Assembly (NCBI RefSeq): GCF_000019805.1
Contig: NC_010525.1
Location: 1,476,618-1,540,617, forward strand
DNA length: 64,000 nt
Direction: 5' to 3'
From: Pyrobaculum neutrophilum V24Sta
Lineage (GTDB): Archaea > Thermoproteota > Thermoprotei > Thermoproteales > Thermoproteaceae
Below, piece by piece: positions 57,690 through 60,387 of this stretch; position 1 is the first letter of the stretch; each line of letters starts with the position of its first letter. Below the pieces are notes generated by a model. It worked only from the letters and a program-made list of their open reading frames with translations. It did no database searches and had not been told where the DNA came from. The translations under genes and the position numbers were made by a program.

Positions 57690-58332
57690 CCTCCTCCCCC
57701 CTCACAAGGGGGATTCCCAGGGCCTCGGCGAGCTTTTCGGCGTCTTCCAAGGGAAGCGCCTCTTGGCTTTCGCCAAGCGCCTCGATGATCACGAGAGCCG
57801 GCGGGAGCCCCGCGGCCTTGGCCAAGATCAGGGCCAGCTCTGTGTGGCCCCACCTAGCCCCCAGCCTGCCCCCGAGCACGGGGACGTGCCCCGGCATGTA
57901 GAAGCTTTTGGCGAACTCCTCTCTTGCGGCCTCCGGGTTCCTCAACGCGAGTTCCACAACCCTCGAGAGCTCTCTCACGGTGAGGGCCTTGTCTCTATCT
58001 CTAATGCCGGTTTTGGTTTTGACGTGGTTTACGTAGCCCATGAAGGCAGGCTCGTCGCCGTAGGGAGCCCGCGTGGAGAAGCCCCTCCTCCCGTAGTATT
58101 CGCTGAGGAACTCCAGCCCCAGCGCCTCGCCCACCTCCCTTGTCGTGACGAAGCAGAGTAGCCCTCCCGCGTTTCGCCTCAGCCAGTGGACTAGGGCTGG
58201 GGTGACCGCGTCGCCGCGTACCACGAAATCCACCTCAGCCTCTCTGCCGTCGCCGTCGTAGAGCATCACGAGGCGGCCTGCCCTAAGCGCCTTTATCGCC
58301 TCCTCGAGAAGCACAGTAAACTTAGGGTTCAT
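57673..58332 (-). CDS. ribB: 3,4-dihydroxy-2-butanone-4-phosphate synthase
   Basis: 219 residues, monofunctional. [19 protein letters not shown] holds the acidic metal motif (usually DxxxRExE), [13 protein letters not shown] and the C-terminal [34 protein letters not shown] with the His of the active site. It supplies the four-carbon unit of lumazine. The 18-bp palindrome lies just upstream; the TATA-like AAATATAAG next to it would suit a start at GTG 58314 better than the ATG given. Confidence 0.94.
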
Positions 58333-58346
58333 CCTCTTATATTTTT

Positions 58347-58364
58347 TGTAAACTATTGTTTACA
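58347..58364. promoter_or_regulatory. Riboflavin operator candidate 1
   Basis: TGTAAAC-TATT-GTTTACA, perfect 7-bp arms. It lies 15 nt before the ribB start and overlaps the stop codon of arfC. The second copy at 59707 has identical arms. Confidence 0.8.
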
Positions 58365-59006
58365 TCTAACGCGGTATGTCAGCACCACCTCCTGCCCGCA
58401 TTCGCACAGCTTTATGGAGGTGAGCGTTAGGGTGAAGGGGGCGTCCTCCTTCGTCGGGAAGCCGGCTCCCTCCACGAGGGAGACTCCGCTTCCGAAGACG
58501 TAGGGCGTCACGGTGAGCACTATCTCGTCGACGAGGCACTTAGATAGGAACTCCCAGTTCGTCCTCCCGCCTCCCTCCAACAGCGCCTTCCTCACGCCGC
58601 GTTGGTACAGGACGTTGAGAACCTCAGCTGGGTCCACTTGGTCGCCCTCCGCCACGTAGACCTCAACGCCCCGCGCCTTGAGCTCAGCCGCCTTCTCCGG
58701 CGGGGCTTTCCTGGTGGTGAAGACGATGGTGGGGGAGGAGGAGTCGAACATACGTAGGTCAGTTGGCGCCTTTAGGGATCCGTCGATTAGCACGCGGAGG
58801 GGGTTCCTCCCCTCCACGTATCTCACGGTGAGCCTGGGGTTGTCCACTATGGCTGTGTTTGCGCCCACTATCACGGCGTCGACGGCCGCCCTTAGTGCGT
58901 GTAGCCTTCTCAAGTCGTGGGGGCAGGAGAGGCGCGAGTAGCCCGTTTTACTCGCTATCCTGCCGTCTATGGTGGCCGCCGCGGCTAAATAGACGTAGGG
59001 CCTCAT
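58353..59006 (-). CDS. arfC: 2,5-diamino-6-(ribosylamino)-4(3H)-pyrimidinone 5'-phosphate reductase (RibD C-terminal type)
   Basis: 217 residues. PYVYLAAAATIDGRIASKTGYSRLS (substrate strand), LRAAVDAVIVGANTAIVDNPRLTVR (the NADPH-binding G-x-N-T region), VLIDGSL and ALLEGGGRTNWEFLSKCLVDE. This is the archaeal/fungal RibD-like reductase without a deaminase domain. Its start overlaps the end of the GTP cyclohydrolase III gene by 4 nt, so order cyclohydrolase-reductase-RibB follows the pathway. Confidence 0.93.
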   Translation of the reverse strand: MRPYVYLAAAATIDGRIASKTGYSRLSCPHDLRRLHALRAAVDAVIVGANTAIVDNPRLTVRYVEGRNPLRVLIDGSLKAPTDLRMFDSSSPTIVFTTRKAPPEKAAELKARGVEVYVAEGDQVDPAEVLNVLYQRGVRKALLEGGGRTNWEFLSKCLVDEIVLTVTPYVFGSGVSLVEGAGFPTKEDAPFTLTLTSIKLCECGQEVVLTYRVRCKQ

Positions 59007-59668
59007 TTTACCACCTCCACGCCTTCTCTCCCGGCTGATCTAAGTCGGTCTAGTGCCCATGTGGCTCTTACGAAGGCGTTGTATGGCCTTTTCGCAACGC
59101 CGACGCCCACCCTCACCCTTAGATCTACGCCGTCTAATATGCTGTATATTGCGTTGGGGCTTGGGAGGAAAAGCGCTATGTTGTCCCCGCCGAGGTAGAA
59201 GGCCATGCAGCCGAGGTCTTTACACCTCTCCCCCAGCTGGCCGAGGAGCTTAACCACCTTGAGATACACGTCGAGAGGCCCGTTTCGCCTAGTCGCCTCG
59301 GTGCTGTTTATCACGTCCATATGCGCCACAACGGCTGGCGAGGCGGCTCCGCCCCCTCCTCCGCCGCATCTGAGGTAGGCCTCGTAGGGGGTTTCGCCGA
59401 CGCCGAGGCAGAAGCCGGCCCCCACAGGCGAAGCCCTAGCCGCTTTCTCCACGGCGCGTTTTACGAGGTCGAGACTTACCCCGTTTACTAGGGCTATGTA
59501 GAAGTCGTATCTGAAGTGGTGGGGCAGAGCCCCCACGGCTGTGAAGCTCCTCCAGACGGCGGCCTGGATCCTGGATTGGACCTGCTGTATTATGTGCTCC
59601 CGGCGTGGGCCAAGGCTCTCGGTCCACTCCCTATAGCCCTTGAGCTCCACAACCACAACCCCGTGCAC
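59003..59668 (-). CDS. gch3: GTP cyclohydrolase III
   Basis: 221 residues. VVVVELKGYREWTESLGPRREHIIQQVQSRIQ at the start, FRYDFYIALVNGVSLDLV and VAHMDVINSTEATRRNGPLDVYLKV then FYLGGDNIALFLPS are those of the MJ0145 family, a relative of adenylyl cyclases that opens GTP to the formamide FAPy. First step of archaeal riboflavin and F420 synthesis. CATTTAAATATC is centred 27 nt upstream; a TGTAAAC half-site lies between it and the ATG. Confidence 0.93.
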   Translation of the reverse strand: MHGVVVVELKGYREWTESLGPRREHIIQQVQSRIQAAVWRSFTAVGALPHHFRYDFYIALVNGVSLDLVKRAVEKAARASPVGAGFCLGVGETPYEAYLRCGGGGGGAASPAVVAHMDVINSTEATRRNGPLDVYLKVVKLLGQLGERCKDLGCMAFYLGGDNIALFLPSPNAIYSILDGVDLRVRVGVGVAKRPYNAFVRATWALDRLRSAGREGVEVVK

Positions 59669-59706
59669 ATCGCTGTAAACCTTAGTAGATATTTAAATGT
59701 GTAAGT

Positions 59707-59724
59707 TGTAAACTTCTGTTTACA
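59707..59724. promoter_or_regulatory. Riboflavin operator candidate 2
   Basis: TGTAAAC-TTCT-GTTTACA, arms identical to candidate 1. It sits in the divergent gap between gch3 (minus) and arfB (plus), directly upstream of both TATA boxes, where one bound dimer could control both. An extra TGTAAAC half-site is at 59674-59680. Confidence 0.85.
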
Positions 59725-59757
59725 GAAAGGGTTTATAGCGCAGAGGTGCCGCGGACT

Positions 59758-60387
59758 GTGGTCTGCGTGTTGCCCATCGGCTCATATGAGCAACACGGCC
59801 CGCACCTCCCCCCTACTGTAGACGCGGAGGTGGCTCTATACATCGCCTCTAGGCTGGCCGAGCGGTTCGGAGGCCGCCTCCTGCCGCCCATATACTACAC
59901 CTGTAGCGACGAGCATAGGGCGTTTCCCCAGACCATATCTGTGAGGTGCCGAAGCTTCCTCCCATATCTAGAAGACGTGTTGAGATCGGCCGTGGAGAAA
60001 TGCGGGAGAGTTGTGGCGGTGGTCGGCCACGGCGGGGTGTGGGAGGCCGTCAGCCTCACGGCCCAGCAGCTGAACTACGAGCTGGGGCCCTCGGTTTTGC
60101 CGATAAACGTGTGGGCCTACGCCGCCGTGAGAGACCACGCCGGGACAGACGAGACGAGCGTGTATCTGGCCATCGGGGGGAGGCTCACCGGCGACATGCC
60201 GGAGATCTGCGAAGGAGACGTCTCCCTATTCGGGAAGATGGCCGTAGACCGCTTTTCTAAAACCGGCGTTGTAGGCTGTCTCAAGCCGGGGGAGGTTTCG
60301 GCAGACAGAGGCAGGGAAGTTCTGGAAAAAGCGGTGCAAAAAATGGTGGAGCGGGTGGAGTGGTGGCTCAGCCGTTGCACTTCTTAA
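59758..60387 (+). CDS. arfB: Creatininase-family FAPy deformylase ArfB
   Basis: 209 residues from GTG 59758, chosen because GGTTTATAG is centred 24 nt before it; GTG 59746 is 12 nt longer. VLPIGSYEQHGPHLPPTVDAEVALYIA carries the first metal ligands (E-Q-H-G-P-H-L-P, then D), VVAVVGHGGVWEAV the HG(N/G) motif, and GTDETSVYLAI the H/E region of the creatininase fold. Next to GTP cyclohydrolase III and the reductase it is best read as the deformylase acting between them. Confidence 0.9.
   Translation: MVCVLPIGSYEQHGPHLPPTVDAEVALYIASRLAERFGGRLLPPIYYTCSDEHRAFPQTISVRCRSFLPYLEDVLRSAVEKCGRVVAVVGHGGVWEAVSLTAQQLNYELGPSVLPINVWAYAAVRDHAGTDETSVYLAIGGRLTGDMPEICEGDVSLFGKMAVDRFSKTGVVGCLKPGEVSADRGREVLEKAVQKMVERVEWWLSRCTS

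Follow-up and report, generated by a model that had tools for sequence, protein, structure and literature searches.

Genes and palindromes of the riboflavin cluster

The window analysed here, a stretch of 64,000 nucleotides covering bases 1476618-1540617 of the Pyrobaculum neutrophilum genome, contains a cluster of riboflavin genes. Read from the minus strand are gch3/arfA, encoding GTP cyclohydrolase III (59003-59668), arfC, encoding an archaeal RibD_C reductase (TIGR01508; 58353-59006), and ribB (PF00926; 57673-58314); arfB, which encodes a creatininase-fold formamide hydrolase, is read from the plus strand (59758-60387). Two perfect palindromes, designated O1, are associated with these genes. 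The first, at the ribB promoter (58347-58364), reads TGTAAAC AATA GTTTACA on the minus strand and TGTAAAC TATT GTTTACA on the plus strand, and is conserved in relatives. It overlaps the stop codon of arfC and is therefore an internal site of the gch3-arfC-ribB gene run. The second (59707-59724; TGTAAAC TTCT GTTTACA) is common to the divergent gch3 and arfB promoters. The initial annotation had described a motif present exactly twice in the cluster, with identical perfect arms and a variable centre, and the sequences at both positions agree with that description.

A motif search of the whole genome, a single contig of 1,769,823 bp, returned two exact copies of TGTAAAC-N4-GTTTACA, both in the riboflavin cluster; the number expected by chance from base composition is 0.0013 per genome. 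The annotation had left room for the motif being frequent away from riboflavin genes, and this is clearly not so, 2 of 2 exact sites being located at such genes. Two further places appeared when up to two mismatches were allowed; one lies within a coding frame, the other in the intergenic region of purD and purC, and both look like chance occurrences. No site within three mismatches was found in the vicinity of ribH, ribC or rbkR in the P. neutrophilum genome; the few matches with four mismatches near these genes also look fortuitous.

The longest open reading frames, beginning at ATG 58332 for ribB and GTG 59746 for arfB, probably extend too far upstream; comparison with relatives favours leaderless starts at 58314 and 59758. 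In the 15 genomes of the family that retain the ribB site, the interval from the start of O1 to the ribB start codon is 50 or 51 bp, which suggests that ATG 58332 belongs to the upstream sequence and that GTG 58314 is probably the true, leaderless start. For arfB, the probable start GTG 59758 aligns with the ATG of relatives, 33 bp past O1. The palindrome at 59707-59724 lies at a fixed distance from both divergent start codons, as is required by the earlier proposal that one site governs the two promoters.

A second palindrome beyond the TATA box

An alignment of 17 family genomes anchored on the perfect palindrome revealed a degenerate second palindrome, O2, at +32/+33 in both the ribB and the gch3 promoters. 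At ribB, O2 (ATGAACCCTAAGTTTACT; 58315-58332, minus strand) lies 32 bp from O1 and ends just before the probable start codon; this element was absent from the initial annotation and is equivalent to the O2 of gch3 (TATCTACTAAGGTTTACA; 59674-59691, minus strand), a degenerate palindrome of 18 bp positioned 33 bp from O1. The extra TGTAAAC half-site noted earlier in front of gch3 does exist (59674-59680), but it does not stand alone: it is the stronger half of this degenerate palindrome. O1 and O2 are separated by 14-15 bp, within which a TATA-like stretch is found at the ribB promoters and at gch3 in Pyrobaculum. In P. neutrophilum the putative boxes are AAATATAA for ribB (58337-58344, minus strand) and TTTAAATA for gch3 (59690-59697, minus strand). 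Both promoters are therefore built in the order operator, TATA, operator, start codon. The arfB promoter, with a putative TATA-like box at 59731-59738 on the plus strand (GTTTATAG), has O1 alone, just upstream of the BRE; the palindrome-anchored scan detected no mirror-image O2 on this side.

When 166 offsets were scanned with a matrix trained each time without the genome under test, the O2 offset came out on top at 22 of the 32 promoters. Those where it did not were the six Thermoproteus gch3 promoters, where there is no clear O2, both promoters of G001, one of the genomes in which O2 is weak, and two cases in which it came second.

One could imagine that the palindromes act as RNA, forming terminator or attenuator hairpins rather than binding a protein as DNA. 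The placement of one of them between arfC and ribB would suit such a role. Their arms, however, are A+T-rich 7-mers with loops of four bases, and their arrangement follows the TATA boxes and recurs before first genes. Moreover, the start codons follow the sites at a short, constant distance, and a TATA-like box intervenes; this suggests that the sites precede the transcription starts and form no part of the mRNA of the downstream gene. We regard a function in RNA as highly improbable.

Distribution of the sites among relatives

The annotation had also suggested searching related genomes, and the association with riboflavin genes holds there. Among 19 family genomes (Pyrobaculum and Thermoproteus), 20 sites were found with at most one mismatch, 19 of them at the riboflavin cluster; the remaining one, inside a HerA-like coding frame in G002, looks like chance. 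In a set of 81 genomes of the class, all seven exact copies lie at riboflavin genes. The second family of the order carries a shorter core, TAAAC-N4/5-GTTTA. Its genus g6 has an O1/O2-type pair spaced 31-32 bp at ribB in 12 of 12 genomes, and a comparable pair, spaced about 31 bp, precedes gch3 in most g6 genomes, where the palindromes overlap the TATA box and the start. Genus g8 mostly has one palindrome, farther upstream of ribB, and in G011 (genus g2), which has RbkR, no clear palindrome was seen at gch3 or ribB. A reversed-pattern control of the tandem search gave zero matches. Of three other tandem-pattern matches (G004, G007 and G024), the two that were inspected, in G004 and G024, showed no link to riboflavin.

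Perfect core sites were counted in the 130 bp before each gene, in genomes that are related, so that the counts do not represent independent events. Such sites precede ribB in 20 of 32 cases, gch3 in 15 of 32, arfB in 5 of 18 and ribU, the gene of the ECF riboflavin importer, in 7 of 8; none was found before ribH (0/29), ribC (0/21) or arfC (0/17; 0/67 for the three together).

Putative operators in front of the importer gene

RibU is encoded in eight Thermoproteales genomes, in all of which ribB went undetected. These organisms are likely to be riboflavin auxotrophs. A look at transporter genes had been recommended in the annotation, and it proved informative: seven of the eight ribU genes are preceded by perfect palindromes with the same core, the exception being that of G020. 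In genus g4, two sites lie 44 bp apart in front of ribU, one helical turn beyond 33 bp. In three genomes of genus g7 the only palindrome sits between the TATA box and the ATG. In G035, where ribB, gch3 and ribH were not detected, a match to the tandem pattern occurs at a gene for an ECF substrate-binding protein, followed by an ECF-type ATPase gene; the protein matches the solved RibU structure 5KBW (E 8e-8) and, weakly, PF12822. The second half of this tandem match lies within a coding region and is probably fortuitous. In relatives lacking the genes for riboflavin synthesis, the shared regulatory mark singles out the protein that probably imports the vitamin. The RibU loci are L181:1518-2803, where the ATPase gene is adjacent, and L199-L205. 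The RibU homologue of G020 (L205, G020:C2:300339-300863) contains an in-frame TAG and has no operator in front; it is possibly a decaying gene or the product of a sequence error.

The candidate regulator

Control of riboflavin genes by RbkR-type regulators is established elsewhere in archaea. The P. neutrophilum genome has one gene for a CTP-dependent riboflavin kinase, and its product of 211 amino acids carries an N-terminal winged helix-turn-helix (HTH). This gene, rbkR (minus strand, G000:C1:1203431-1204066, corresponding to L149:3432-4067), lies some 330 kb from the rib cluster. The kinase domain is recognized with confidence (PF01982, E 2.7e-47), and profile matches to the N-terminal winged HTH are weak. 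The best match in the PDB is 3CTA/5TRD from Thermoplasma acidophilum (E 1.8e-34), which aligns over residues 21-210, from the HTH through the kinase, and outranks the kinase-only MJ0056. The T. acidophilum protein, Ta1064, is the reference RbkR (PMC8305020) and has been recovered among chromosome-associated proteins (PMC7325993); RbkR is also named in PMC10746257. The neighbours of rbkR in P. neutrophilum (L149:880-4624) are an aldolase-like gene and a pair of HerA-like and NurA-like genes, unlinked to the rib cluster.

The proposal that the palindromes are RbkR operators is strengthened by the exclusivity of the motif, by the HTH-kinase fusion that the genome encodes and by the sites at ribU, with binding itself predicted from sequence. 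It could be argued that some other dedicated HTH regulator recognizes the palindromes and that the RbkR of this order has kept a role as kinase only. Consistent with such an arrangement, rbkR lies apart from the rib cluster and appears to lack an operator throughout the order: upstream of rbkR we found perfect sites in 0 of 35 cases and a near match in 1 of 35, with none by rbkR in P. neutrophilum. In addition, no RbkR was found in three genomes that are 76-87% complete (G030, G035 and G036), and palindromes persist in two of these incomplete genomes, G035 and G030. On the other hand, the HTH half is kept in all seven RbkR sequences that were aligned, which represent both families and include genomes without riboflavin synthesis, and G020 (93% complete), in which no RbkR was found, is the one RibU genome whose importer gene lacks a palindrome. 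Together with the precedent for RbkR-type control in other archaea, these observations make a different regulator improbable. Membership of rbkR in its own regulon is common and is not a defining requirement.

Repression or activation

We consider it very probable that the two perfect palindromes are the primary RbkR operators, with O2 as a weaker partner and repression as the most likely mode; this is the reading that best accounts for the observations as a whole. An RbkR dimer would occupy each O1, and O2, 32-33 bp downstream, would provide a second, weaker dimer site. This spacing is about three helical turns, which would place both dimers on the same helical face, flanking the TATA box. 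Cooperation between the dimers and control by ligand are expected features of the model. The shared O1 would control the divergent arfB and gch3-arfC(-ribB) promoters, and the other O1 the internal, apparently leaderless ribB promoter. Repression is the most likely mode: O1 abuts the BRE and O2 fills the stretch from TATA to start, so that bound RbkR would shut out TBP/TFB and polymerase. It is favoured by the position of O2 and by the importer site of genus g7, whose location between TATA and ATG is a blocking one.

Binding by orthologous RbkR proteins is reportedly stimulated by CTP and inhibited or weakened by FMN. Combined with repression, this effect of FMN would amount to induction by the product, an odd outcome for feedback; it would suit activation better. 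RbkR might thus be an activator which, with CTP and little FMN, binds O1 beside the BRE and recruits TFB, until FMN releases it and closes the feedback loop. The ligand effects reported for RbkR orthologues fit this scheme, and so does the geometry of O1: at ribB and arfB it stops 32-33 bp short of the start codon, in a position resembling those that known archaeal activators occupy immediately upstream of the BRE. Nevertheless, O2 covers the segment from TATA to start, and a dimer bound there should stand in the way of polymerase; the sole ribU palindrome of the g7 genomes occupies the same downstream position, and the gch3 palindromes of g6 overlap TATA and start. Activation is in our opinion a real possibility, if a minority one. 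The sign of RbkR control appears to be the main conflict in our analysis, geometry pointing to repression and the reported effect of FMN to activation.

It is tempting to go further and speculate that RbkR, itself a metabolic enzyme, clamps the core promoter of Thermoproteales, two same-face dimers, three or four helical turns apart, directly and cooperatively enclosing the TATA box, one beside the BRE and the other between TATA and the transcription start. We hold this more specific proposal to be rather unlikely. If it were true, and if FMN releases RbkR, flavin synthesis and import would be induced by their product rather than repressed by feedback.

Relation to known systems

Judged from sequence comparisons, the system is an instance of the RbkR regulon, a kind already known, and its sites most likely constitute the RbkR operator set of Thermoproteales. 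Archaeal RbkR regulons likewise combine an HTH fused to a CTP-dependent riboflavin kinase with operators at genes for riboflavin synthesis and uptake. Their operators are said to lie at riboflavin biosynthesis and vitamin-uptake genes and to differ in sequence between lineages. In comparison with these regulons, the Thermoproteales operators form an O1/O2 pair that flanks TATA at a spacing of about three (31-33 bp) or four (44 bp) helical turns, and rbkR is not its own target. The archaeal riboflavin kinase (RibK) MJ0056 shares the CTP-dependent kinase domain but is an enzyme on its own, with no HTH attached (PMC8305020). The FMN riboswitch (RFN) of bacteria also sets the expression of riboflavin genes according to flavin level, yet it is based on RNA, whereas the elements described here are DNA palindromes at promoters.

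Our literature search for riboflavin regulons of Thermoproteales found no paper on them, nor a description of the tandem layout. The Thermoproteales operators may already be listed in the study of archaeal RbkR regulons by Rodionova et al. 2017 (NAR 45:3785, doi 10.1093/nar/gkw1331), which is cited in PMC8305020. Both the tandem layout and the sites found at the importer gene in relatives that do not make riboflavin extend the original finding. For vitamin B2 control in a major order of hyperthermophiles, the result is a small set of operators open to experiment. The shared O1 shows how two divergent promoters can be run from a single site, and with operators arranged in tandem around TATA the sign of RbkR control can be put directly to the test.

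Gene order around the sites varies. In G006 (L135) the arfC-ribB junction is without a palindrome, the ribB match beginning about 14 bp after arfC, which suggests loss of the internal promoter. In Thermoproteus (L141-L146), arfB precedes gch3 on the same strand, in contrast to the divergent arrangement of Pyrobaculum, and the gch3 operator (O1) lies inside the last codons of arfB.
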